Origin: Siphonobacter sp. SORGH_AS_0500
GTDB taxonomy: Bacteria; Bacteroidota; Bacteroidia; Cytophagales; Spirosomataceae
Length of the DNA stretch: 64,000 nt
NCBI RefSeq assembly: GCF_002838835.1
Contig: NZ_NHPP01000024.1
Coordinates: 1 to 64,000, forward strand
Direction: 5' to 3'
The notes below the pieces were generated by a model. The model saw only the letters and a program-made list of their open reading frames with translations, did not search any database and was not told the origin of the DNA. Numbering within the stretch: position 1 is the stretch's first letter; the number at the start of each line of letters is the position of its first letter. Below, in pieces: positions 2,214 through 37,564 of this stretch. The position numbers and the translations under genes were made by a program.

Positions 2214-3188
2214 ATGCAACCGATTACCCGCGTTCAATTGATGGACTACCATGCCGGGCGAGCTACGCCCCTGCAAGTTCGTCAGGTAGAAGAATGGCTT
2301 CAGCAGCCCGAGAATCGAAATCTATTTTACGAGACCCTTCATGAATGGGAAAGCGGAAATCTTCAGTATCAGGCTGATACCGAAGATGCTTTTAAGAAAT
2401 ATCAGGAGTTCATGGAGCAGGGCGTTCGTCCGGTTGTCGTTGAAAAGAATCCTAATCATTTCTGGTCCTGGAAACCCTGGCTGGCCGCCGCTGCTGTGCT
2501 GGTGGTTTGCTCCGGCTGGTTTTTTCGGGACGAGCTTCAATATAAAAGCTACCAGACGGCTTACAGTGAAATAAAACCGGTGGTATTACCCGATGGAAGC
2601 CAGGTAATACTCAATGCCAATTCTACCCTCAAGTACCCACGATTTGATTTTGGAAACGGCCCCCGAAACGTAATCCTGAGCGGAGAAGCTCGCTTTTCGG
2701 TAGTACACACCAAAGACAACCGCCAGTTTGTAGTAAAGACCAACCGGAATCTGGATGTGGAAGTGGTAGGAACCGAGTTCGTAGTTTTTAACCGCAACCG
2801 GGGCACCCGAGTGGTATTAATGAAGGGAAAAGTACAGCTCAACTTTCAGGAGCAGGGGAGAAAGTTAACGATGAAACCTGGCGATCAGGTAACCTTAACT
2901 GCCGTGGGGGCTTACGAACTAAAAAAGCAGAGTAAACCCGAAACGCTGGCGGCCTGGACTCACCATCGGTACGTGTTTACGGATACTTCGCTATCAGAAA
3001 TCGCGGAGTTAATGAAGGAAAATTACGGCTTCGAAGTAAAAATTCCCGATCAAAATCTGGCAAAACGGCTGGTAACCGGAGACTTTGTTGCTAAAAACGG
3101 CAATGAATTACTGCACGTGCTGGAAGTAATGCTACGCCTCAAAATTGAGCGTACGGGTAAAACGATTACCCTAACCGAGAAAAACTAA
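2214..3188 (+). CDS. FecR-family anti-sigma factor (FecR + DUF4974)
   Basis: A 324-residue single-pass inner-membrane anti-sigma factor. An N-terminal cytoplasmic part of about 80 residues (MQPITRVQLMDYHAG..., rich in W/E) would bind the sigma factor. A transmembrane segment at about 88-105 (WLAAAAVLVVCSGWFF) follows. The periplasmic FecR domain (VVLPDGSQVILNANSTLKY, then FVVKTNRNLDVEVVGTEF) lies at about 115-235 and a DUF4974 domain (YVFTDTSLSEIAELM...) at about 250-324. It sits 35 bases after the repaired sigma stop and 24 bases before susC, so sigma-FecR-SusC form one signalling unit. ATG 2214 was preferred over upstream in-frame starts, which would add residues unlike the family. Confidence 0.9.
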   Translation: MQPITRVQLMDYHAGRATPLQVRQVEEWLQQPENRNLFYETLHEWESGNLQYQADTEDAFKKYQEFMEQGVRPVVVEKNPNHFWSWKPWLAAAAVLVVCSGWFFRDELQYKSYQTAYSEIKPVVLPDGSQVILNANSTLKYPRFDFGNGPRNVILSGEARFSVVHTKDNRQFVVKTNRNLDVEVVGTEFVVFNRNRGTRVVLMKGKVQLNFQEQGRKLTMKPGDQVTLTAVGAYELKKQSKPETLAAWTHHRYVFTDTSLSEIAELMKENYGFEVKIPDQNLAKRLVTGDFVAKNGNELLHVLEVMLRLKIERTGKTITLTEKN

Positions 3189-3212
3189 CACTACCTCTTG
3201 CATATATTATCT

Positions 3213-6200
3213 ATGAAAAAATCACTACCCCTGTGTCTCTGGGCGGGTTTGGCGATGGCTCCGGGATTAGGGAGCTCCCAGACCTTTGCCCGAGCCGAAA
3301 GCCTGCGGCAGGAAACGAAAAGTAAATTACCGGCGTATCGGTCGTTAAGGAAAGCCTTACAGGACATCAAAACGAATTATAAAGTTGATATTCTGTTTGA
3401 AAACCGCACGGTGGATCACGTATCCATTCCCGTTGAACGCCTCAAGGGCCATGCGTCAGCTGAACAAGCATTAAAAGCCATTCTGACTCCGGTAGGGCTG
3501 AGCTTTCAGAAAATGAAGGAGAAGTCCTACATTATCATTCAGGAAGAAAAAAATGTACAGTCGGCTTCTCCTAATACGTCCTTTGTACTGCCGCCAATCA
3601 ATGGGGTTTCGCCCCTGTTATTCCAGCGGCAAACCAGCCCAGCGGCGGATATTCCGGTGCGGGGAACCGTGAGGGATGAAGCTACGGGCGAAGGCTTACC
3701 CGGCGTAAACGTGATTGTAAAAGGAACTTCCAAAGGAGCCACTACCGATGCAACCGGAGCGTTTCGGCTGGACGTTCCTGATGGAAATGCAATCCTGATT
3801 TTTTCTTCGGTGGGGTATCAATCGCAGGAGCTAGCAGTAGGATCACAAACGATTCTGAACATTACCCTGAAAAACAGCGATCAGGCTCTGAATGAAGTGG
3901 TAGTGGTGGGATACGGTGAGCAGAAGAAAGAGTCCATTACCGGGGCCATTTCAACGATTACCAGCAAAGATCTCGAAAAAGTACACGGGGGTTCGACGGT
4001 CAGTAGCGGTCTGGCGGGGAAGATTCCGGGGGTAACCTTTCGGATGAATGACGGTCGGCCCGGCTCTAGTGCCAATATCCAGATTCGGAACATGGGTAAC
4101 CCTTTGTACGTAATCGACGGAATCCAGAAAGATGCGGGGCAGTTCAATAACATTTCACCCAACGACATTGAGAGTATTACCGTATTGAAGGATGCGTCGG
4201 CGGCCATTTATGGAGTTCGGGCGGCAAATGGTGTGATTGTGGTCACGACGAAACGCGGAAAAATGGGCAGCTCTAATACGATAAATGTTGATGCCTACAC
4301 GGGTTTTCAAAACTGGACGCGTTTTCCGAAAACGACGAATGCCTATCAGTGGATGCTGGGAAAGGCCGATGCAGAAATGAACCAGTATGGACGTACCGAC
4401 ATCACGCAGGAGGAACTAAACAAGTGGCAACAAGGCACGGAAACGGGGTATAAAAGCTTCGACTGGTTTAAGTACATTGTCAAAAGAAACGCTCCGCAGT
4501 ATAACTTCAACATCAACGCAACGGGCGGTTCGGATAAAATCAATTACTACATCTCGGCGACGCACCTCTTCCAGAATTCAGTATTAGGCCGGGAATTTAC
4601 TTTTAAACGAACCAATATTCAGAGTAACGTTGATGCCCAGATTACCAATTCGCTGAAAGTGGGCGTACAGATCAATGGTCGGATTGAAACGCGGGATAAC
4701 CCCGGCGTTCCGGGGGCTGATGATTATTGGGCTCCTCGTTTTGCCTTGTTCCGTAATCGCCCTACCGAGCGTCCTTTTGCCAATGATAACCCGGAATATC
4801 TGAATGACATCGGGCATAACGATACCAACTGGGGCTTGTTAAATAAAAATAAATCAGGGTATTGGCGGGAAGACTGGCGGGTACTACAAACCAACTTCGT
4901 CGGCGAGTATCGGTCACCCATCAAAGGCTTGACGGCAAAAGCCACGTATTCGTATTACTTCGCGGATCGCCTGATGAACGGCCATGAGTACACGTACGAT
5001 GCCTACACTTATTACAAAGACACCGACAAGTACGTTCGAACGGGTGGAAGTACAAACCCCTGGCGGGAGCGGGGCACCCGAAAAATCCTCGAAAACGTAA
5101 CGCAGGGACAGATTAACTATCAGAACAGCTTCGGCAAACATAATTTCGCAGCCACCTTCGTAGCGGAACGGATTGCCCGTCGCGAACTCGACGTATGGGT
5201 ACACTCGGTACCTCAAACCAATGAGTTACCCCTGCTGCAATTTGCCGACATGGATACCTATAACGATAGCGATATTCAAACGGCCCGGGCGGGTTACATT
5301 GGTCGGATTAACTACAATTACCAGAACAAGATTTTCCTCGAAGTGGCCGGACGGCGGGATGCGTCCTACAAATTTGCTCCTTCCAAACGCTGGGGTTTCT
5401 TCCCCTCTGTCTCGGGTGGGTGGCGAATCACGGAAGAGTCATTCTTCAAGGATTTAACGGGTGGCGACCGGGTATTAACGAACCTGAAGCTTCGGGGTTC
5501 GTACGGGGCTCTTGGGGATGACGATGTAGGGATCGGTGATTTTGATTATGTATCGGGCTATAACTATGGTTCTTCAACGGTAATTATCGATGGTCAGGTC
5601 ATTAAAGGCTCACGTGATCGGGGTGTTCCCATTACTAATATCTCCTGGTTTACGTCAAAAATCCTGGATTTGGGTCTGGACTACACGCTTCTGAACGGAA
5701 AATTCAGCGGCTCGCTCGACTACTTTAACCGGAAACGTTCGGGGTTACGCGGTCGGAAATATGACGTACTTGTTCCTTCGGAATTGGGTTATGGCTTGCC
5801 GGACGAAAACGTAAACAGCGATGCTCAGATTGGCGGCGAAGGTTCGCTGTTTTATAGTACCAAATTCAATGAAGTAAACTTTACGATTGGCGGTAACCTG
5901 TCGTACTCTCGCCGCAAATTTCTGTCCTCTTATAAACCCCGCTGGAATAACTCCTGGGATTATTACCGCAACTCTAGTGAGAACCGCTTCAATGATCTTT
6001 ACTGGGGCCATCACGTGATCGGTCGGTTTGAGTCGCTGAGCCAGATTGCCGAATACGGGGTAAATATTGATGGTCAGGGAAATAAGACCCTGTTACCCGG
6101 AGATTTGATTTATGAGGATACCAATGGGGACGGCGTGATTAACGATTCCGATATGCGTCCGATTGGGAATGGCGTAGGAGCTAACCCTACGATTAACTTC

Positions 6201-6692
6201 GGTCTGAACCTGCAACTGGCCTGGAAAGGATTCGATTTCACGGCTGACTTCTCGGGCGGATCGGGTTATTCCGTGGTTCGTAATTACGAGTTACGCACGG
6301 CTTTCCAGAATGGTGGAGCTTTACTGAAAGACTTCTATGAAGATCGCTGGCATCGCGAGAATCCCTTTGATCTGAACAGTGCCTGGGTGGCCGGAAAATA
6401 CCCCGCTTTACGCTTCAACGACGGCGGTCATAGTAATAACCGGGCTTCTGATTTCTGGCTCACTAACGTAACCTATCTGCGAATGCGTACGATGGAACTC
6501 GGGTACTCGGTACCTCAGCGAATCCTCGAAAAAGTGAAGGTGAAACGGGCTCGGGTTTACCTGAACACCTATAACCTGTTCTCGATCGATAACCTGAGAA
6601 AAATCGGTATTGATCCTGAAATTACCGAAGAAAACGGTCTGGCTTATCCTCAAAATAAATTCGTCAACGTCGGAGTGAATCTCTCACTTTAA
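3213..6692 (+). CDS. SusC-family TonB-dependent outer-membrane transporter with STN signalling domain
   Basis: A protein of about 1159 residues that imports oligosaccharides through the outer membrane with its SusD partner, powered by TonB. Domain order: signal peptide (MKKSLPLCLWAG...); an STN (secretin/TonB short N-terminal) domain at about 45-108, which in transducers contacts the FecR periplasmic domain; a carboxypeptidase-regulatory-like beta-sandwich at about 148-225 (GTVRDEATGEGLPGVNV); a plug from about 227 (NEVVVVGYGEQKKESITGAI); then a long beta-barrel ending ...FVNVGVNLSL. The STN domain together with the adjacent sigma/FecR pair indicates substrate-induced autoregulation. The start is ATG 3213; an in-frame TTG at 3198 is less likely. 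Confidence 0.95.
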   Translation: MKKSLPLCLWAGLAMAPGLGSSQTFARAESLRQETKSKLPAYRSLRKALQDIKTNYKVDILFENRTVDHVSIPVERLKGHASAEQALKAILTPVGLSFQKMKEKSYIIIQEEKNVQSASPNTSFVLPPINGVSPLLFQRQTSPAADIPVRGTVRDEATGEGLPGVNVIVKGTSKGATTDATGAFRLDVPDGNAILIFSSVGYQSQELAVGSQTILNITLKNSDQALNEVVVVGYGEQKKESITGAISTITSKDLEKVHGGSTVSSGLAGKIPGVTFRMNDGRPGSSANIQIRNMGNPLYVIDGIQKDAGQFNNISPNDIESITVLKDASAAIYGVRAANGVIVVTTKRGKMGSSNTINVDAYTGFQNWTRFPKTTNAYQWMLGKADAEMNQYGRTDITQEELNKWQQGTETGYKSFDWFKYIVKRNAPQYNFNINATGGSDKINYYISATHLFQNSVLGREFTFKRTNIQSNVDAQITNSLKVGVQINGRIETRDNPGVPGADDYWAPRFALFRNRPTERPFANDNPEYLNDIGHNDTNWGLLNKNKSGYWREDWRVLQTNFVGEYRSPIKGLTAKATYSYYFADRLMNGHEYTYDAYTYYKDTDKYVRTGGSTNPWRERGTRKILENVTQGQINYQNSFGKHNFAATFVAERIARRELDVWVHSVPQTNELPLLQFADMDTYNDSDIQTARAGYIGRINYNYQNKIFLEVAGRRDASYKFAPSKRWGFFPSVSGGWRITEESFFKDLTGGDRVLTNLKLRGSYGALGDDDVGIGDFDYVSGYNYGSSTVIIDGQVIKGSRDRGVPITNISWFTSKILDLGLDYTLLNGKFSGSLDYFNRKRSGLRGRKYDVLVPSELGYGLPDENVNSDAQIGGEGSLFYSTKFNEVNFTIGGNLSYSRRKFLSSYKPRWNNSWDYYRNSSENRFNDLYWGHHVIGRFESLSQIAEYGVNIDGQGNKTLLPGDLIYEDTNGDGVINDSDMRPIGNGVGANPTINFGLNLQLAWKGFDFTADFSGGSGYSVVRNYELRTAFQNGGALLKDFYEDRWHRENPFDLNSAWVAGKYPALRFNDGGHSNNRASDFWLTNVTYLRMRTMELGYSVPQRILEKVKVKRARVYLNTYNLFSIDNLRKIGIDPEITEENGLAYPQNKFVNVGVNLSL

Positions 6693-6702
6693 TCTGCTGA
6701 CT

Positions 6703-8580
6703 ATGAAAAAGATACATTACGTAAGTTTCCTGGTGCTGATGTGGGTAGGCTGGTCCTGCAACGATCAGAAGTTTCTGGATAAAGACCCTACAAACATTCT
6801 GACCAACGATAAAGTCTGGCAAAGTCCAAATCTGGTATTAACCGTTCTGGTGGATTTGTACGACCGTTATCCAGAAGTGCAGAGTACCGAAAAATGGGTG
6901 GAATATGCCAACTTCGATGAGGCCTTTGCTTCGAGTGCGGGGGAGTATTACCGTCATAAAAACCAAGAGTATAACTACGACTGGTGGAATTACTGGGATT
7001 ACGGCTACCTGCGAGAAATGAACCTCTTTATCCAGAAATGCACGGCAGCCACCCAACTGGACGAAGCCAGCAAAAAGCGTTTTCTGGCCGAGGCCCGTTA
7101 CCTGCGGGCGTCATTTTACTTCGAGGAGGTAAAGCGAATGGGTGGCGTACCGTTAATTCTGGAGCCTTTGCAATACGATTTCAGCGGCGATCCAACCTAC
7201 CTGCAATACGCCCGATCCAAAGAATCAGAGATTTACGATTTTGTGATTTCGGAAATGGAAGCCATTAAAAACGACTTGCCGAGCGATCCCAATATTAAAT
7301 CCAGGGCTACGAAAGGACTGGCGTTGGCTACGGAAGCACGGGCGGCTTTGTATGCGGGTTCGATTGCCAAATACGGCGTGAACACGCCACAGGTTGCTTT
7401 ACCCGGCGGAGAAGTAGGAATTGAAGCGAGTAAAGCCACGGCTTATTTTCAGCAGTCGTTGAAGGCTTCGGAAGAGTTGATCGCGTTAGGACAGTATGCG
7501 TTATACCTGAAAAAACCGACGGATTTATCGGATAATTTCGCCAGCTTATTCACCGATAAATCGAATAATGCCGAAGCGATTTTCGTGAAGGATTTTAAAC
7601 TCAAAAGCGGAAAGACTACCGACTGGACGATCATCAATCAGCCTCGTTCGGTAGCGGAGGAGCAGCAGGGTGGACGCCTGAATCCTTCACTAAATCTGGT
7701 GCAATCCTTTGAAAAGCTGGATAATACGTTTGCTACCTATGGGTATACCGATGCCAGCGGAGCGAATCGTTACTTTTCCAATCCACTCGAATTATTCGCG
7801 GGCCGTGACGCTCGGCTGGCCGGAACGGTGATTCTGCCGGGAAGTCAGTTTAAAGGAAAAACCGTTGACATCTGGGCGGGTTATCTGTTAACAAATAATA
7901 CGGTTATCTCAGGAGATAATTTTGGGGCTCGGAAAGTATTACCCGGCAAAACGATTGAAGAACAAGTCGTTGGTTTCGACGGCCCAATTGACGGGCTGGA
8001 GTTCAGTGCTCAGACGGGTTTTTACGTACGAAAATACCAGGACCCTACGGTGGGCTCGGGGCAGCTAGGTACCCGGAGTGAGGTGTGGTGGATTCGGTAT
8101 CGGTATGCTGAAGTAATACTCAACGCTGCCGAAGCCGCTTTTGAACTCGGACAGAATGCCAAAGCGGCGGGTTACCTGAATCAGGTTCGCAAACGGGCTG
8201 GATTTACGAAAGACCTCGTATCGGCGGATATTACCTTCGATCGCATCGTTCACGAACGAAAGGTAGAGTTGGCTTTTGAAAACCACATTCTCTGGGACAT
8301 GAAACGCTGGCGGCTGGCTCATGTGGTCTGGAACGGTAACGCAACCGAACTGACTACACAACCCGGCGTCGCAACCGAAACCAGCACCCGCATTTTTGGT
8401 CTCTGGCCTTACAAGGTATACGCTCCCGGAACCGAGCAAAACGGCAAGTGGATTTTCAGAAAGATTATTCCTTCCAATGTAACCAATCCGCACCGCTTCC
8501 GGCTAGGTAACTATTACTCGCTTATTAGCGAAGAAATCCGCAGTAATAATCCCAAAATTGTCAAGAATCCGAATCAGTAA
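6703..8580 (+). CDS. SusD/RagB-family outer-membrane glycan-binding lipoprotein
   Basis: A 625-residue surface lipoprotein that caps the SusC barrel and binds the glycan. The lipoprotein signal ends at Cys19 (VGWSC-NDQKFLDKDP), the usual SusD opening. TPR-like helices (FLAEARYLRASFYFEEVKRMGGVPLI) and the typical C-terminal part (NQVRKRAGF, FDRIVHERKVELAFENHILWDMKRW) are clear. It begins 10 bases after the susC stop and is co-transcribed with it. The binding specificity cannot be read from the sequence. Confidence 0.95.
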   Translation: MKKIHYVSFLVLMWVGWSCNDQKFLDKDPTNILTNDKVWQSPNLVLTVLVDLYDRYPEVQSTEKWVEYANFDEAFASSAGEYYRHKNQEYNYDWWNYWDYGYLREMNLFIQKCTAATQLDEASKKRFLAEARYLRASFYFEEVKRMGGVPLILEPLQYDFSGDPTYLQYARSKESEIYDFVISEMEAIKNDLPSDPNIKSRATKGLALATEARAALYAGSIAKYGVNTPQVALPGGEVGIEASKATAYFQQSLKASEELIALGQYALYLKKPTDLSDNFASLFTDKSNNAEAIFVKDFKLKSGKTTDWTIINQPRSVAEEQQGGRLNPSLNLVQSFEKLDNTFATYGYTDASGANRYFSNPLELFAGRDARLAGTVILPGSQFKGKTVDIWAGYLLTNNTVISGDNFGARKVLPGKTIEEQVVGFDGPIDGLEFSAQTGFYVRKYQDPTVGSGQLGTRSEVWWIRYRYAEVILNAAEAAFELGQNAKAAGYLNQVRKRAGFTKDLVSADITFDRIVHERKVELAFENHILWDMKRWRLAHVVWNGNATELTTQPGVATETSTRIFGLWPYKVYAPGTEQNGKWIFRKIIPSNVTNPHRFRLGNYYSLISEEIRSNNPKIVKNPNQ

Positions 8581-8594
8581 ACGCATTCGAACGG

Positions 8595-9287
8595 ATGAAA
8601 AAATATCTCTTTTTGTTGTTGATAGGAAGTTTAGTAACCTCCTGCAAATTAGATAACTACGATCCGCCAGCGTCGGAATTGAAGGGTCGAATCGTATACA
8701 AAGGTGAACCCATTGGCGTAGAATACAACAACGTAACTTTCGAGTTGTGGGAGCCGGGTTGGGGTAAAAAAGGCTCCATTAACGTCAACGTCGATCAGGA
8801 CGGATCCTATGCCACGCAATTATTTGATGGGAATTACAAACTCATCATTCCTTCGTATCAGGGACCGTTCAAGTCCATTCCGAACGCGGAGACGAAATCG
8901 GATACCATTCCGGTTCAGCTTCGGGGTAGTCGCACGATGGACATTGAAGTACTGCCTTATTACATGATTCGCAACGCAACATTTACGGGTGGGGAAAAGA
9001 AGGTTTCAACGCAGTTTTCCATCGAAAAAATCATTACCGATGCCTCGGCCAAAAACATCGAAGAAGTGGCTCTTTACATTAGCAAAACCTCCTTTGTTGA
9101 TGTTCGCACCAACATTGCCTCCCAGGTAATCAAAGGAGCGGATTTAAAAACTATGAACCGCATTCAGATGCAGGTAACCGTACCAACCATTACGCCTGCT
9201 CAGAATTTCGTTTTTGCCCGGGTGAAGTTAAAAGTAAGTGGGGTAGAAGACCCGATTTTCTCGGCTATTCAGAAGGTAACTTATTAA
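8595..9287 (+). CDS. DUF3823 lipoprotein (putative surface glycan-binding protein)
   Basis: A 230-residue lipoprotein with Cys at residue 17 (LVTSC-KLDNYDPP). The N-terminal half (LKGRIVYKGEPIGVEYNNVTFELWEPGWG, then VDQDGSYATQLFDGNYKL) matches the DUF3823 beta-sandwich, which is found almost only immediately downstream of susD in glycan-utilisation loci. The C-terminal half is a second beta-rich domain. It starts 14 bases after the susD stop, so it is the last gene of the SusCD operon. The likely role is glycan capture at the cell surface; this is inferred from position. Confidence 0.85.
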   Translation: MKKYLFLLLIGSLVTSCKLDNYDPPASELKGRIVYKGEPIGVEYNNVTFELWEPGWGKKGSINVNVDQDGSYATQLFDGNYKLIIPSYQGPFKSIPNAETKSDTIPVQLRGSRTMDIEVLPYYMIRNATFTGGEKKVSTQFSIEKIITDASAKNIEEVALYISKTSFVDVRTNIASQVIKGADLKTMNRIQMQVTVPTITPAQNFVFARVKLKVSGVEDPIFSAIQKVTY

Positions 9288-9295
9288 CTGTTTTC

Positions 9296-9328
9296 CACTT
9301 CCCGAAAGCTTTGAACTTTCGGGAAGTG
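9296..9328 (+). terminator. Hairpin after the SusCD-DUF3823 operon
   Basis: A perfect 13-base inverted repeat (CACTTCCCGAAAG / CTTTCGGGAAGTG) with a 7-base loop begins 9 bases after the DUF3823 stop codon. No T-run follows, so it may stabilise the transcript end rather than act as a classic intrinsic terminator. Its core (CCCGAAAG...CTTTCGGG) reappears at 34896-34932. Confidence 0.5.
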
Positions 9329-9568
9329 CCAATCTGCCAGGACCCTTTATGCACTTTTCAAACCCTACATTTTACTTCCAAATGAGTTAAAACAAGACCA
9401 ATCGTGCTTTTATTAGTATCCTCTCAGAAATCGCCAGAATGTGAAGGAGTTAGTATCTTGTAAAAGCAAATAGCCCTGGCTTTTACCTTTTCTTAACCCT
9501 GATTCATCGCAGTGCTGAAGAAATAAAAGCCGTTTTACATTCCTCTTAAACACTAGTTAGTCTCGTTC

Positions 9569-10564
9569 ATGCGGAAGTTACCTCAATCCCTCAAACGTAA
9601 AAGTCTCCTCCTCCTGGCACTGGCTGGGGCGGCCTTTGGAGCCGAAGCTCAGAAAACCAGCTCTGGTAACCCCGTTTTTCCTGGCTGGTATGCCGATCCC
9701 GAAGGCATCATTTTTGGTAAAAATTACTGGATTTATCCTACCTATTCGGCTCCTTACAACAAGCAGGTGTTCATGGATGCGTTCTCTTCACCCGATTTAG
9801 TGAACTGGAAAAAGCACCCGAATATCATTGATACCAGCTCGGTAAAGTGGGCGAAGCGAGCCCTATGGGCCCCATCCATTATCGAGAAAAAAGGCAAGTA
9901 TTACCTGTTTTTTGGAGCAAACGACATTCAGAATGATCAGGAAAAAGGGGGCATTGGGGTAGCCGTAGCCAACAAGCCTGAAGGGCCATTCAAGGATTAT
10001 CTGGGTAAGCCACTCGTGGATAAATTTCACAACGGAGCACAACCCATCGATCAATTCGTTTTTAAGGATAAAGACGGTGAATATTACCTGATTTACGGTG
10101 GCTGGAAACACTGTAACATTGCTCACCTGACGCAGGATTTTAAGGGATTTATTCCTTTTGAAGACGGCAAAACGTTCAAAGAAATTACGCCTGCCAATTA
10201 CGTAGAAGGTCCCCTTATGTTCATTCGTAACGGGAAGTATTACTTCATGTGGTCGGAAGGTGGCTGGACGGGGCCAAACTACTCCGTGGCTTATGCCGTG
10301 GCCGATTCTCCGTTCGGACCCTTCGAACGCGTTGGGAAGGTGCTTCAGCAGGACCCTAAAGTAGCGACGGGAGCGGGCCACCACTCGGTTATTCAGCGGC
10401 CCGGAACGGATGAGTGGTATATTATTTATCACCGTCGCCCCCTCAGCGAAACCGATGCGAACCACCGCGAAACCTGCATCGAACGGATGTATTTCGACGA
10501 AAAAGGCATGATTCAGCCCGTGAAGATCACCTTCGAAGGCGTTCAGAAACAGACAGTTAAGTAA
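9569..10564 (+). CDS. GH43-family glycoside hydrolase, secreted
   Basis: A 331-residue protein with a signal peptide (to about residue 27, ...AGAAFGAEAQ). It has the five-bladed beta-propeller pattern of GH43: GWYADPE gives the general base Asp43, PIDQFVF the pKa-modulating Asp161, and YVEGPLMF the general acid Glu213. GH43 enzymes are arabinofuranosidases, xylosidases or arabinanases that remove arabinose or xylose. It is the first enzyme gene after the SusCD operon, separated by about 280 bases, and probably has its own promoter. The exact linkage is unknown. Confidence 0.9.
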   Translation: MRKLPQSLKRKSLLLLALAGAAFGAEAQKTSSGNPVFPGWYADPEGIIFGKNYWIYPTYSAPYNKQVFMDAFSSPDLVNWKKHPNIIDTSSVKWAKRALWAPSIIEKKGKYYLFFGANDIQNDQEKGGIGVAVANKPEGPFKDYLGKPLVDKFHNGAQPIDQFVFKDKDGEYYLIYGGWKHCNIAHLTQDFKGFIPFEDGKTFKEITPANYVEGPLMFIRNGKYYFMWSEGGWTGPNYSVAYAVADSPFGPFERVGKVLQQDPKVATGAGHHSVIQRPGTDEWYIIYHRRPLSETDANHRETCIERMYFDEKGMIQPVKITFEGVQKQTVK

Positions 10565-10749
10565 GGTTTGATGGAATTTGAAAACTGGTTTGAGTGTTTG
10601 ATGGGGTTTGACTAACGAACCGCTAGTTAACATCCCCTCCGACGCTCAAATCCCATTAGACAATTTCAAACCTTTCAACCTATCTCAAACCTCATCAAAT
10701 TAGATCAACCTTCAAACTTTCTCAAACCATTTCAAACCTCTAAACTTTT
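10565..10749. repeat. Imperfect CAAACC-type repeat, present in both orientations
   Basis: The left part (about 10565-10612) holds repeated GGTTTGA/TTTGATGG words. The right part (about 10645-10746) holds their complements (TCAAACC, CTCAAACC, TTTCAAACC) several times. The two halves could pair into a long imperfect stem between the GH43 and DUF4965 genes. It is low-complexity and non-coding; the function is unknown. Confidence 0.6.
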
Positions 10750-13170
10750 ATGAAAAAACGTTTTCTCCTGCTGGCCGCTTTGGCTACGCATGGCTGGGTA
10801 CAGGCTCAGGTAGGCCGGGCACCCGCGTATCCCCTCATCACGCACGATCCTTATTTTAGTGTTTGGTCAACAACGGATCAGTTAACGTCTTCACCTACGA
10901 AGCACTGGACGGGTGCCGATCAGCCTTTGTTCGGCGTGTTGACGGTTGACGGCGTGAATTATCGTTTTCTGGGTCAGGAAGCTAAGGGCTACGACGCCAT
11001 TATTCCCACGGCTGATGAGGAAGGCTATGCCGTGAAATACAGTGAAAGCGAACCCAAATCAGGCTGGAATACCGTGAATTTTTCGGATAGCGACTGGAAG
11101 ACTGGCAAAGCTCCGTTCAGCGACGATAAAAATCACGCGGCTACGCACTGGAATAGCCAAGATCTTTGGACGCGTCGGACCTTTGATCTAAAGCAGGTTC
11201 CGTCAGAGCAGGTTTTCCTGAAACTCCAGCATGATGATAACATCGAAGTGTATCTAAACGGCGAGAAAGTGTATTCGCATAAGGGCTGGATTCATAAGTT
11301 CAATTACATCCCGCTCAAGTCAAAACTGAAAGCTGGTAAAAACGTACTGGCGATTCACATTGCTAATACCGCTGGTGGAGCATTTTTGGATGCAGGTTTA
11401 GTGAAAGAAAAGGTCTCGAAAGAGAAGGTAATCATGCAAACGGCTCAGCAGAAAAACGTTGAGTTCTCGGCTACGCAAACTAAGTATACCTTCGCTTGTG
11501 GTAAAGTAGATCTGGACGTAACCTTCACTTCACCCTTGCTGCTCAACGATTTAGATCTGTATGCTCGTCCAGTTACTTACGTGACCTATCGCGTAAAAGC
11601 GAACGACGGAGCTTCGCATCAGGTGAATTTCTACTTCGGAGCATCGACTAATCTGGCTACGAACGTACCCACACAAGCGGTAACGGCTACGGCGGCTTCC
11701 ACGAATGAATATACCGCTCTGAAAACCGGAACGAAAGAACAACCAATTCTGAAAAAACGCGGCGATGACCTCCGCATTGACTGGGGTTACTTCTACGTAG
11801 CGGCTCCGAAAAATAATCAGGTGGTGCAAACGGTTAGTGCGATGCCTTCCCTGAAAGGTCAAAAATCGTCTATTAGCGAAGGAAAATCATTATTCCTGAA
11901 TACGACGGTAAATCTGGGTTCGGTAAATTCCACGCCGAAGGAGCAATACCTGATGGTGGCTTATGATGACGTAGAGTCAATTCAGTACTTCGGCCAGAAC
12001 CTCAAACCCTGGTGGAAAGAAAGTGGATCGACGATTGAAAAAGAGTTATCCAAAGCCATTTTGGAATACCAATCGGTGATCGAGAAATGCGAAACTTTTG
12101 ACAAGCAGATGTTTGCCGATGCTAAAAAAGCGGGTGGTGAAGACTATGCGAAACTTTGTGTATTGGGCTATCGTCAGTCGGCAGCGGCTCACAAACTGGT
12201 GAAAAGTCCTAAGGGAGAAACGCTGTACCTCTCGAAGGAAAATTTCAGTAATGGTTGTATCAACACGGTTGATGTAACGTATCCTTCTGCTCCTTTATTC
12301 CTGCTATATAAGCCTGAGTTACTAAAAGGAATGATGAATGGAATTTTTGAATATAGCGAAAGCGGAAAGTGGAAAAAACCTTTCGCCGCTCACGATTTAG
12401 GAACGTATCCTTTAGCAAATGATCAGGTTTACGGCGAAGATATGCCCGTAGAGGAATCTGGTAACATGCTGATTTTAACGGGTGCGATTGCAAAAGCCGA
12501 AGGAAACGCAGCATACGCCCGAAAACACTGGAAAACACTGAGCACCTGGGCTGAGTACTTATTGAAAGACGGTTTTGACCCCGCTAACCAGTTATGTACG
12601 GACGATTTTGCGGGTCACTTGGCTCGGAATGCGAACCTTTCTGTAAAAGCGATTGTCGGTCTGGGTTGTTATGCCATGTTAGCCGAGCAACTGGGAGAGA
12701 AAGAAACTGCCGAGAAGTTCCACAAGAGTACCCAGGAAATGGTACAGAAATGGATGCAAATCGCGGATGATGGCGATCATTACGCCCTGACTTTCGACAA
12801 AAAAGGGACCTGGAGTCAGAAATATAATCTGGTTTGGGATAAGGTATTAGGCTTGAAACTATTCCCTAAATCGGTGTATGACAAAGAGATTAAGTATTAC
12901 CTGACGAAGCAGAATTCTTACGGATTACCACTCGATAGCCGTAAGACCTATACCAAATCTGACTGGATCGTGTGGACCGCTACGTTAGCGGATAATCAGA
13001 AAGATTTTAACGCATTAATCGAGCCATTACTGAAATATGCTCACGAAACGTCGTCACGTGTCCCCATCAGCGACTGGCATGAAACAACCGATGGTAAAAT
13101 GGTTGGTTTTCAGGCCCGTAGTGTAGTAGGGGGGTATTTTATGAAGTTACTGGAAGAAAAAATGAAGTAA
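10750..13170 (+). CDS. Glutaminase A-like DUF4965/DUF5127/DUF1793 secreted protein (putative glycosidase)
   Basis: An 806-residue secreted protein with a signal peptide (MKKRFLLLAALATHGWVQAQ). The opening (PAYPLITHDPYFSVWSTTD) is the DUF4964/GtaA-like start. A galactose-binding-like insert (WTRRTFDL, HDDNIEVYLNGEKVY, NVLAIHIANTAGG) spans about residues 110-225. The DUF5127 region follows, then DUF4965 (about 455-620, with YGEDMPVEESGNMLIL) and DUF1793 (about 620-800, with WVWTA-type and DWHETTDGKMVGFQARSVVGG). The family is named after a fungal glutaminase, but in Bacteroidota it travels with glycan-degrading genes, so a glycosidase role is more plausible (inference). It lies between two GH43 genes. 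Confidence 0.85.
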   Translation: MKKRFLLLAALATHGWVQAQVGRAPAYPLITHDPYFSVWSTTDQLTSSPTKHWTGADQPLFGVLTVDGVNYRFLGQEAKGYDAIIPTADEEGYAVKYSESEPKSGWNTVNFSDSDWKTGKAPFSDDKNHAATHWNSQDLWTRRTFDLKQVPSEQVFLKLQHDDNIEVYLNGEKVYSHKGWIHKFNYIPLKSKLKAGKNVLAIHIANTAGGAFLDAGLVKEKVSKEKVIMQTAQQKNVEFSATQTKYTFACGKVDLDVTFTSPLLLNDLDLYARPVTYVTYRVKANDGASHQVNFYFGASTNLATNVPTQAVTATAASTNEYTALKTGTKEQPILKKRGDDLRIDWGYFYVAAPKNNQVVQTVSAMPSLKGQKSSISEGKSLFLNTTVNLGSVNSTPKEQYLMVAYDDVESIQYFGQNLKPWWKESGSTIEKELSKAILEYQSVIEKCETFDKQMFADAKKAGGEDYAKLCVLGYRQSAAAHKLVKSPKGETLYLSKENFSNGCINTVDVTYPSAPLFLLYKPELLKGMMNGIFEYSESGKWKKPFAAHDLGTYPLANDQVYGEDMPVEESGNMLILTGAIAKAEGNAAYARKHWKTLSTWAEYLLKDGFDPANQLCTDDFAGHLARNANLSVKAIVGLGCYAMLAEQLGEKETAEKFHKSTQEMVQKWMQIADDGDHYALTFDKKGTWSQKYNLVWDKVLGLKLFPKSVYDKEIKYYLTKQNSYGLPLDSRKTYTKSDWIVWTATLADNQKDFNALIEPLLKYAHETSSRVPISDWHETTDGKMVGFQARSVVGGYFMKLLEEKMK

Positions 13171-34939: not shown

Positions 34940-36292
34940 TTAACGCCCAGTGGGCAGAGGAATCACGGGTAAGCTTTCATTTCCGCCTTCCGTGATGGAT
35001 TGAACGGCGAAGAAATAAGAGTCACGCGAGTAGGGGAGCGTAATCGACGTATCCGTCACGAAAAACTTCTTTTGCCAGAAAGGCTGATAGGTTTCCCGCA
35101 TTAACACATAATAGCCCTTCACTTTTCCGCTTTTCGGAGCTTTCCAATTCAGTTTAGCATAATTGGCCGATCCTTTTACTTCAATCTTGACCTCCTGAGG
35201 CATTTGTGGAGCTTTGGCTAAGTTCGCCAGGGCGGCCAGATTAACTCCGGCATTTTTACGGAGGTATTCAAAATCCATGAACTTGATCAAATCGCCGTAT
35301 TCTTTACCTTTTTCGGTATGAATATCCTGGTGTTGGTGATCAAAGTTTTCATTCATTTCGGTAATACGAACCGCCGCAAACCCACGATTGACAAAAGGCG
35401 TATGATCACCCCCGCGTTGAAAACGGTCGTTTCGGTAAATCAAAACCACTTCCAGATTTTCAACGTAACGTTCGCCCACCTCTTTCATGTAACGAGCTAA
35501 CTGACGCGTTTTTCCGTCGTTTTCCGCCCCAATGGACCGAATTGTAGCGGCCTGCTCGGCAGTCTGGTAGGCGGGTAAGCCTTCACTGAAAACCCGAAGT
35601 CTCGTGTTATCAATAACACTCATTTCACTTCCGGCTGAGGAACCCATGGTATCGTTATTGAGAATGGCTTCCAGATTCCATTTTTTATCAACGGCCTGTT
35701 GAGCATAATAATCCGCTCCGTATAAACCCTGTTCTTCTCCGCTCACAATCAAAAAGACAAGGGTAGCCGGAAATTTGGCCTGAGCCATAACCCGAGCCAG
35801 CTCCAAAGCCGTGGCTACTCCAGACGCATCGTCATTGGCACCGGGCGAATCAATATCCCGGTTCATAATATCGAAAGCACGGGAATCGATGTGGGCAGAA
35901 ATGACAAAAACGCGATCATCCGCAGGATCGGTGCCTTTTAAGGTAGCGACGACATTGGCAATTTCGTGTTCCTTATCAATCCGGCGACCGTCGGGTTTTA
36001 AGGTCCAGCTTTGTAGTTCTGCGGTTAAACGGCCACCGGAGTTTTTAGCGTAAGATTGAAATTTGGAAAGCGTCCATCGACGAGCCGCTCCAATTCCTTT
36101 TGTGGCATCCGTGACTGAACTCATGGTGTGACGAGAGCCAAAGGAAACCAGTTTTTCTACACTGGCTTTCATGGAATCTGCCGAAATAGCTTTGACATAA
36201 CGCTCAATTTCCGGGTCGCGATTCACTATTTCCTGAGCATGACTAACAAGTGGGAGGAAGAAAGCTCCGAGGAGCAGGTAACGTTTGAACAT
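34940..36292 (-). CDS. M28-family zinc metallopeptidase, secreted
   Basis: A 450-residue aminopeptidase-like enzyme with a signal peptide (to about residue 20, ...LVSHAQ). The co-catalytic zinc ligands of family M28 are visible: His134 (ISAHIDSR), Asp in GANDDASG (about 154), the Glu pair SGEEQGLYG (186-187), Asp214 (NNDTMG) and a C-terminal His in GGDHTPF. A fibronectin III-like domain follows from about residue 365 (VKIEVKGSANYAKLNWKAPKSG, split as VKIEVKGSANYAKL and NWKAPKSG). It probably acts in the periplasm or outside the cell on peptides. Confidence 0.92.
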   Translation of the reverse strand: MFKRYLLLGAFFLPLVSHAQEIVNRDPEIERYVKAISADSMKASVEKLVSFGSRHTMSSVTDATKGIGAARRWTLSKFQSYAKNSGGRLTAELQSWTLKPDGRRIDKEHEIANVVATLKGTDPADDRVFVISAHIDSRAFDIMNRDIDSPGANDDASGVATALELARVMAQAKFPATLVFLIVSGEEQGLYGADYYAQQAVDKKWNLEAILNNDTMGSSAGSEMSVIDNTRLRVFSEGLPAYQTAEQAATIRSIGAENDGKTRQLARYMKEVGERYVENLEVVLIYRNDRFQRGGDHTPFVNRGFAAVRITEMNENFDHQHQDIHTEKGKEYGDLIKFMDFEYLRKNAGVNLAALANLAKAPQMPQEVKIEVKGSANYAKLNWKAPKSGKVKGYYVLMRETYQPFWQKKFFVTDTSITLPYSRDSYFFAVQSITEGGNESLPVIPLPTGR

Positions 36293-36433
36293 ACGATCTC
36301 AAAAGTATTGGTCAGTGATGAAGCAAAGTAATACTTCTGAGCTCATTCCGATGGGAGAATAGATGGGCTGGGGAATTTAGGATGGAAAACCCTGAAGAAA
36401 GGCTACGAATGTCAGTATAGCTATAAAACAAAA
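36293..36433. other. Short spacer between the M28 gene and the candidate RNA unit
   Basis: Holds the M28 promoter. A minus-strand TACTTTTG (36300-36307) matches TAnnTTTG but is so close to the ATG that the message would be almost leaderless. Nothing else was recognised. Confidence 0.35.
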
Positions 36434-36460
36434 TAAGGCCGAGCGAAACGCTCAACCTTA
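36434..36460 (-). terminator. Intrinsic terminator of the candidate RNA unit
   Basis: On the minus strand the RNA forms a 12-pair stem (UAAGGUUGAGCG / CGCUCGGCCUUA, with two G-U pairs) closed by a UUU loop and followed by UUUUGUUUU. The two G-U pairs become mismatches on the plus strand, so this signal is directional. Confidence 0.8.
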
Positions 36461-36791
36461 TCCCACTTAACCTCTAAACCTATTTTACTATGAAAAAACG
36501 CTAACCTCTTGTGAATAATACGACACGGCCTCTTTCACTTATCTTTCCTTCGTGTCTGGTTTTGGAACTCTTCACTAGTAAACATAGTTCCAAAAAATGC
36601 ATTCCAAAGAGAACAAATCCTGCGAAATGAAATTTCTGCAATTTCGCTAAAGCTTTCGAAAAGAAACTATTTTTTGAAAACTTAATTTTATTGAGAAATC
36701 AAATCTTCAACTTCTTTTCTGGTAACTACCACAAAGTTACAAATCATTTCTGATACTTCCTGGTATTTTACAATTTACTTGTCCTCGTTTG
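36434..36791 (-). ncRNA. Candidate structured small RNA (about 355 bases), family unknown
   Basis: A minus-strand unit bounded by a near-consensus promoter (36798-36829) and a directional terminator (36434-36460). Between them are three perfect local stems in series: 36622-36647 (GCGAAAT/ATTTCGC), 36561-36594 (TTTGGAACT/AGTTCCAAA, 9 pairs) and 36522-36556 (GACACG/CGTGTC). AGAGGTTA occurs twice (about 36501-36508 and 36470-36477). The only plausible peptide is 19 residues (MICNFVVVTRKEVEDLISQ, 36688-36747), so a non-coding RNA or an RNA with a tiny ORF is favoured. I saw no tmRNA, RNase P or SRP RNA signature. On the plus strand, a five-codon ATG ORF at 36490-36504 is probably incidental. Confidence 0.5.
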
Positions 36792-36797
36792 ACATTA

Positions 36798-36829
36798 CAA
36801 ATGTAGATACACTAATTTAAAAGTCCAAA
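36798..36829 (-). promoter_or_regulatory. Bacteroidota promoter, TTTG-N20-TACATTTG
   Basis: On the minus strand, TTTG (36826-36829) is followed after exactly 20 bases by TACATTTG (36798-36805), close to the TTTG-N19/20-TAnnTTTG consensus of the primary sigma factor. It points into the AT-rich region between pth and the M28 gene, where no protein of normal size is encoded. Confidence 0.7.
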
Positions 36830-37003
36830 CTTGGAAAATTACAATTTCAAAATATTATTCGGAATAATATCCTATTTTAAAAGCACTATTACGAAAAATT
36901 TGATACAAAAAGACCGCTAGGTAAAATATTATATGGATAAATATGGAATAAAGTTCCTGAAAATATTACTTTCCAAAAATTGAAAATTCTTTAATAAGTA
37001 CAA

Positions 37004-37564
37004 TCATTCGTTAAAATTATTCATCGTCTTGTCAATTCCTAAAGTGCAAAAAGACAAAAGAATGTCAATGCATTTATCCAGACGCTCGGGAATTAACTCT
37101 AATTCAGCTTTCGGAAATTCACCCAAAACGTAATCTGCCTGTCGTCCTTTCGGGAAATCGCCTCCGACACCAAACCGTAAACGAGCGTATTGATCCGTAC
37201 CAAAAATTTCCTGAATATTTCGTAACCCGTTGTGCCCGCCGTGCGATCCTTTGGAACGAACGCGAAGTTTTCCGAAGGGAAGGGCAATGTCATCCGTAAT
37301 AGTTAACGTATTTTCAATGGGAATTTTTAATTCCTTCATCCAGTAGTTAATCGCCTTCCCGCTCAGGTTCATGTACGTAGTAGGCTTGATCAGGTATATC
37401 GTACGACCTTTATACTTGAGTTCGGCTCCGTAAGCCAGTCGGCCTATATCAAATTTTAATCCTTCCTGAGCCGCCAGCCGATCCAGAACCATAAACCCGA
37501 TGTTATGACGGGTCAGGGCATATTCCGGGCCAATGTTTCCCAGACCCGCGATGAGATACTTCAT
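37004..37564 (-). CDS. pth: Peptidyl-tRNA hydrolase
   Basis: A 186-residue enzyme that frees tRNA from stalled peptidyl-tRNA. Family residues are all present: the opening [21 protein letters not shown] (split: [21 protein letters not shown]) with the catalytic His about residue 20; [13 protein letters not shown] with the substrate-binding Asn; [28 protein letters not shown] ([24 protein letters not shown]). Full length for Pth. Monocistronic in appearance; the stop lies next to the AT-rich RNA-bearing region. Confidence 0.97.

Follow-up and report, generated by a model that had tools for sequence, protein, structure and literature searches.

Between pth, the gene for aminoacyl-tRNA hydrolase (37004–37564, minus strand), and its downstream neighbour (34940–36292, minus strand), the 64,000-nt stretch of DNA analysed here (the window) contains an interval without a normal gene. 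A preliminary description, which named the downstream neighbour as an M28 peptidase gene from the sequence alone, proposed that this interval encodes an undescribed structured RNA of about 355 nt, consisting of three local stems between a promoter and a terminator. The same downstream neighbour is present in other members of the genus. The analyses described below lead to the conclusion that the RNA gene is real and new, and that it is smaller and differently built than first proposed.

Promoter, conserved element and further copies

The promoter that had been proposed on the minus strand, TTTG-N20-TACATTTG of the Bacteroidota type (36798–36829), is indeed present: TTTG at 36829–36826 is followed, after 20 nt, by TACATTTG at 36805–36798. 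The promoter is identical in five genus members except for one spacer base, and several other genera have sequences of the form TTTGG-N~20-TRnnTTTG at the corresponding position (16 of 34 loci, in a scan that also counts chance matches). The predicted minus-strand transcript runs from about 36791 to 36426 (~365 nt). A 9-1-9 inverted repeat with perfect arms, ATATTATTC-C-GAATAATAT (36852–36870), lies upstream of the promoter; its arms match at 9 of 9 positions here and at 8 of 9 in five further members of the genus. In many other genera, related words of the form AATATTATTyyG, counted as raw occurrences, are found about 70 and 132–144 nt past pth. The inverted repeat is a candidate operator for a shared regulator.

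Two conservation regimes were evident when the interval was compared with 59 relatives: members of the genus retain the promoter and the initial ~60 nt of the leader, and they do not retain the middle. Conservation in relatives had been set as a test in the preliminary description, and a search of the same 59 relatives with the whole interval revealed a block of ~85 nt (36509–36425) that is identical across six species of the genus. Because this block is identical and the middle of the interval is not conserved, the conserved unit is a short RNA made up of an unpaired 5' stretch and a terminator. This conserved element of ~75 nt (36500–36426, minus strand) contains the single-stranded 5' stretch UUUUUUCAUAGUAAAAUAGGUUUAGAGGUUAA and a terminator of 14–16 bp. 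Hence, the conserved RNA is not the ~355-nt structured molecule that had been proposed but its last ~75 nt, which apart from the terminator are mostly unstructured.

According to the alignments, covariance search and folding, positions 36468–36500 (minus strand) would form the unpaired 5' seed region, CGUUUUUUCAUAGUAAAAUAGGUUUAGAGGUUA, of a FopS-like sRNA, and positions 36426–36467 (minus strand) a short spacer followed by the intrinsic terminator with its U-rich tail, as indicated by the fold and by covariation of the helix. The terminator, GATAAGGTTGAGCG-TTT-CGCTCGGCCTTATT, has a predicted energy of -18.9 kcal/mol (z -6.0). It closes the unit as described previously, although with 14–16 pairs instead of 12. 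It is absent from the list produced by a mechanical terminator scan, probably because the rule of that scan wants 5 T in 8 immediately past the stem. In an alignment of 23 family members, 11 of 13 pairs of the terminator helix show compensatory changes on both sides, and the hairpin sequence of these 23 units varies freely with pairing retained. The unpaired 5' part is the most conserved portion of the element, and the terminator stems vary freely elsewhere.

The core of the element, ATAGGTTTAGAGGT, is also present in other genera, with several tandem copies per locus. A covariance model built from the RNA element (R1) matched 40 of the 59 relatives, mostly within one family, and only 6 of 345 genomes across the phylum. 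No copy was found in the phages and plasmids searched. Two types of seed were distinguished. Type A, UUUUCAUAGUUAAAUAGGUUUAGAGGU, varies slightly and is found in the window, G006, G010, G032 and others; type B, UUUUUCAUGUAGAAAAGGUUAAGGGUUUAGGAAUAGUCAGUAU, is almost invariant between genera and is found in G007, G009, G023, G033, G035 and others. Invariance of unpaired seed bases is what would be left as the expected trace of a shared pairing or protein-binding surface. As proposed in the preliminary description, the RNA is undescribed, since it belongs to no Rfam family at the curated cut-off, and tmRNA, RNase P, SRP and 6S RNA gave no Rfam match at the gathering score or at E values up to 5.

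The genome contains three copies of the sRNA, that of the window and two more (L142 at ~2292, minus strand, and L141 at ~1982, plus strand). Both extra copies start directly behind TAnnTTTG boxes of their own (TACCTTTG and TACTTTTG), and the window copy has no promoter of the TAnnTTTG type at its 5' end. An upstream word like ACAGTTSATAGAAWA is common to these two copies and to those at L143–L145 in G001/G002, which suggests joint regulation. Two to six RNAs in tandem are carried by five of the 24 loci that contain the host gene described below. Arrays with at least three sRNA copies are located at L138, L110, L108 and L139. The final copy of several type A arrays carries a TAnnTTTG promoter of its own and differs slightly at the end of the seed (GGTTAA vs GGTAAG).

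The host secreted-protein gene and the nature of the RNA

Between pth and the element, G004, which belongs to the same genus as the window species, and members of three other genera carry a small secreted-protein gene that is intact. A profile constructed from these four proteins detected the gene in 25 of the 59 genomes. All 24 family loci with the gene share one order on one strand: pth, 241–259 nt, the gene for a secreted protein of 144–160 aa, and then the RNA, which begins 2–59 nt past the stop codon and always lies behind pth. In its position, the RNA is thus of the 3'-UTR type, being placed directly behind a coding gene with a terminator in common in 24 of 24 loci; of this arrangement the window contains a remnant only. 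In many loci the gap between stop codon and RNA is 2–15 nt, too short to accommodate a promoter outside the end of the coding sequence. The host protein did not match any family in Pfam or NCBIfam; its orthologues at L089–L111 and L113 are about 150 residues long and carry a FxxVVxLYNxSP-like motif.

The ~280 nt that precede the element in the window consist of the conserved leader of the lost gene, followed by fast-evolving sequence in which no frame is recognisable. The leader (36735–36793, minus strand) aligns with that of the intact gene of G004 and is inherited from the lost gene. The former start codon (36759–36761, minus strand) is ATG in G004 and AGG in all five genus members lacking the gene (the window species, G001, G002, G003 and G005), the leaders of which all align with that of G004. 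The leader also contains TAACTTTG (36744–36737), which is conserved in the genus and would match a second -7 box, with no TTG at the expected spacing. Alignment, the host-protein HMM and folding indicate that positions 36510–36734 (minus strand) are a remnant or replacement of the coding region, with no ORF and with the three local stems. Indeed, a profile of 25 host proteins did not reveal an ORF or HMM match of the host gene in ten loci that keep pth and the sRNA. Besides those of the five genus members, these gene-less loci are those of G006, G014, G020, G021 and G030.

When the presence of the gene was placed on a tree of 34 Pth proteins (one short marker gene from draft genomes, with a midpoint root for display only), five changes were needed, four of which are forced by well-supported branches. 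Since 24 genomes carry the gene at one and the same position, loss on several occasions is far likelier than gain on several occasions. If the gene is ancestral, it would have been lost about four to five times. As judged by sequence comparison, the host gene is decayed and the RNA retained in the window species and in several related lineages.

The explanation that we consider probable, with some room for error, is that the locus encodes a ~75-nt trans-acting FopS-like sRNA, which forms the last part of a longer transcript: a 3'-UTR sRNA that has outlived its host gene. The anatomy, the conservation, the synteny, the repeated absence of the ORF and the covarying terminator were established at the sequence level; transcription, processing, repression and targets are inferred. 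The transcript would start at the TACATTTG promoter, and the ~75-nt sRNA would be its 3' end. In most of the family this transcript would be the mRNA for the small secreted protein, with the sRNA as its 3' UTR; in the window species, where the coding part has decayed, the ~365-nt transcript would now be only the carrier of the sRNA. It is possibly processed to ~75–85 nt. The exposed 5' part of the sRNA would pair with start-codon regions, CGUUUUUUCAU against AUGAAAAAACG. In this pairing, UUUUUUCAU would lie against AUGAAAAAA and, upstream, GUUUAGAGGUU against AACCUCUAAAC. Pairing at these starts would repress translation of surface or secreted polysaccharide-use genes.

An improbable alternative is the long (~355 nt) structured noncoding RNA, with the whole fold being relevant and newly built in the clade after loss of the ORF. 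None of 100 dinucleotide shuffles folds as well as the 371-nt strand (z -4.25), and the three stems described previously exist (36647–36622, 36595–36561 and 36556–36522). Stem 2 (GGAAC/GTTCC) is retained in five species, and stem 3 shows two of the compensatory changes that were proposed as support for an RNA (G-C to A-U and C-G to G-C, read by eye from the alignments and informed by two diverged lineages only). However, the opposite strand also folds better than its shuffles (z -3.5), so fold energy alone proves little. Moreover, stem 1 is not conserved, being lost in G002/G005, positions 36734–36511 are fast-evolving, and outside the clade the element comprises only ~75–85 nt. The region between leader and sRNA is possibly a structured spacer in the window clade, where pairing persists in part in two of the three stems.

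Considerably less probable still is that the conserved block is nothing more than a dead gene's 3' UTR with its terminator, kept for termination and by the short distance to the peptidase gene, without any regulatory RNA. A strong intrinsic terminator and a decayed gene would be expected in that case, but the portion that is most conserved, and identical in six species, is the single-stranded 5' part, which termination does not need; nor would it account for tandem arrays and separate units with promoters of their own. Least likely of all, and very doubtful, is a still translated small-protein gene, either the 19-residue ORF put forward as the only coding candidate (36747–36688) or another fast-evolving short peptide: its first five codons (ATG ATT TGT AAC TTT) are common to five species and have a purine-rich stretch upstream, but the frame diverges at codon 6 and ends in the aligned relatives after 8 to about 21 codons with different, unrelated residues, and TAACTTTG also fits a -7 promoter box, which is reason enough for the conservation.

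Predicted targets of the sRNA

To return to the trans-acting sRNA, we searched for start regions with which it might pair, covering 1.65 Mb of the genome with 1,261 simple gene calls. The best predicted binding site by duplex energy, AACCTCTAAAC-TTTT-ATGAAAAAACG (10735–10760, plus strand), spans the start codon of a gene for a glutaminase-A-like secreted protein (10750–13170), which adjoins a GH43 gene. The predicted duplex has two arms of 11 pairs each, over AACCTCTAAAC and ATGAAAAAACG, and at -35.2 kcal/mol is the best of 1,843 start regions; the best obtained with 70 shuffled sRNAs was -33.2 kcal/mol. Strong duplexes at starts outnumber those of nearly all shuffles at most thresholds, not at all of them: at -24 kcal/mol, 3 of 70 shuffles equal the real count.

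Another predicted site (3188–3223, plus strand; -26.6 kcal/mol) lies at the start of a SusC-type receptor gene (3213–6689) in the same polysaccharide locus and is the best of 29 SusC starts; as a class, SusC starts outperform other genes only slightly (p 0.02). Positions 3213–13170 of the window contain the SusC-type receptor, GH43 and glutaminase-A-like genes and constitute a candidate polysaccharide locus, two starts of which rank high as predicted targets. Many SusC-family matches on six contigs of this genome (G000; C7, C13, C17, C22, C27 and C31) are split between frames or contain a stop, as a result of either gene decay or assembly errors.

Across 21 genomes, searches for near-perfect extended targets of both seed types, A and B, revealed one start site that stood out, in G017, where a 23-nt perfect complement extends across the start codon of a putative secreted sialidase (identified by reading the sequence, without a family-library scan). 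In the genome of the window species itself, near-perfect extended targets of the whole seed were not found; only the element and its two paralogues rose above background. A seed-complement site in G015 was rejected, as it opens only a 12-residue frame. A pattern scan of ~85,000 species for a partial complement yielded 17 scattered, chance-like places and was likewise set aside; the pattern also excluded the G017-type site.

Among 2,136 8-mers without ATG, CTCTAAAC ranks first in enrichment at start regions. Simple sequence resembling CTCTAAAC is generally abundant in such regions, and many cases are simple repeats such as AAACTCAAAACTCTAAAC or of the AAACTC type. In G009, which has a type B seed, the seed complement is not specially enriched in the 400 kb searched. 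Because of the confounding by simple repeats and because the G009 test did not reproduce it, the enrichment was dropped as proof. Taken together, the target signal is modest and the evidence for targets suggestive only. We regard a start-codon mechanism as likely, with the particular targets as candidates.

Relation to FopS and other known systems

The FopS sRNAs of Bacteroides constitute Rfam family RF04319, BTncRNA_FopS (PMC11697453). In a permissive Rfam search, RF04319 was the only full-length bacterial sRNA match to the locus (36501–36427), with 29.1 bits and an E value of 0.03, against a gathering threshold of 56 bits. Conversely, model R1 found all 12 FopS loci taken from three genomes in register, at 24–35 bits, with the next unrelated match at 14.5. 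Only one of 5,000 shuffles of the 5' region was as similar to FopS, placing the similarity of the seeds beyond chance. None of the 59 relatives gave an RF04319 match at E ≤ 0.001. The genome of the window species, which is 92.6% complete, yielded no match to an RRM_1 (RbpB-like) protein, whereas the Bacteroides control did.

Judged from its sequence, the element thus has a FopS-like anatomy and, likely, a FopS-like mode of action, and by score and by the RRM_1 partner it falls outside the family. That it is a true FopS orthologue, descended from the common ancestor of the class, is a stronger claim placed on top of the 3'-UTR sRNA explanation and not an alternative to it. We regard this claim as unlikely, though less so than any of the alternatives considered above. 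The reciprocal in-register matches and the shared UUUUUCAUAGU...AGGUUAA speak for it. Against it, besides the score and the missing partner, are the distributions: RF04319 was found in only 3 of 345 phylum genomes, and model R1 finds almost nothing outside its own family. Because the two barely meet across the phylum, no continuous distribution joins FopS and the element. Common descent and convergence on AUGAAAAA starts are both possible.

A broader proposal, which is quite possible and which we advance tentatively, is that the 3'-UTR sRNA is the lasting function of this locus. Four to five lineages would have discarded the coding part independently, so that an mRNA became a noncoding RNA gene, and the sRNA with its tandem expansions would govern surface-polysaccharide genes in a family without the RRM partner of Bacteroides. 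If so, FopS-type control of polysaccharide genes would not be confined to gut Bacteroides but would also operate in another branch of the phylum. Loci with intact gene and sRNA, with decayed gene and sRNA, and with tandem sRNAs would provide a clean natural series for studying the conversion of an mRNA into a regulatory RNA gene. The element, with its fixed place beside pth, is easily found, which makes it a practical marker and knockout target.

Like FopS, the element is ~70 nt long, has an unstructured 5' seed, UUUUUCAUAGU...AGGUUAA, followed by an intrinsic terminator, occurs in several copies per genome, and is predicted to pair at the start codons of SusC and glycoside hydrolase mRNAs. 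Unlike FopS, its seed has extra bases (GUUUAGAGGUUAA vs AUUUAAGGUUAA), its main copy is part of the 3' UTR of the conserved gene for a secreted protein that follows pth, or of the remnant of that gene, and an RRM_1 (RbpB-like) partner was not found in the window genome. Only one of the 14 FopS of B. thetaiotaomicron is classed as derived from a 3' UTR (PMC11697453). GibS of Bacteroides resembles the element in its R1-type seed and its targeting of start codons (PMC11697453); GibS has in addition a second seed, R2, and its own type of promoter, neither of which has so far been seen in the element. According to a word search, a review on sRNAs derived from mRNA 3' UTRs (PMC9438474) does not mention pseudogenes, remnants or host genes. 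With the sRNAs treated there, the element shares its position at the 3' end of an mRNA and the terminator in common with it; unlike them, it stays in several lineages in which the coding part has been lost.
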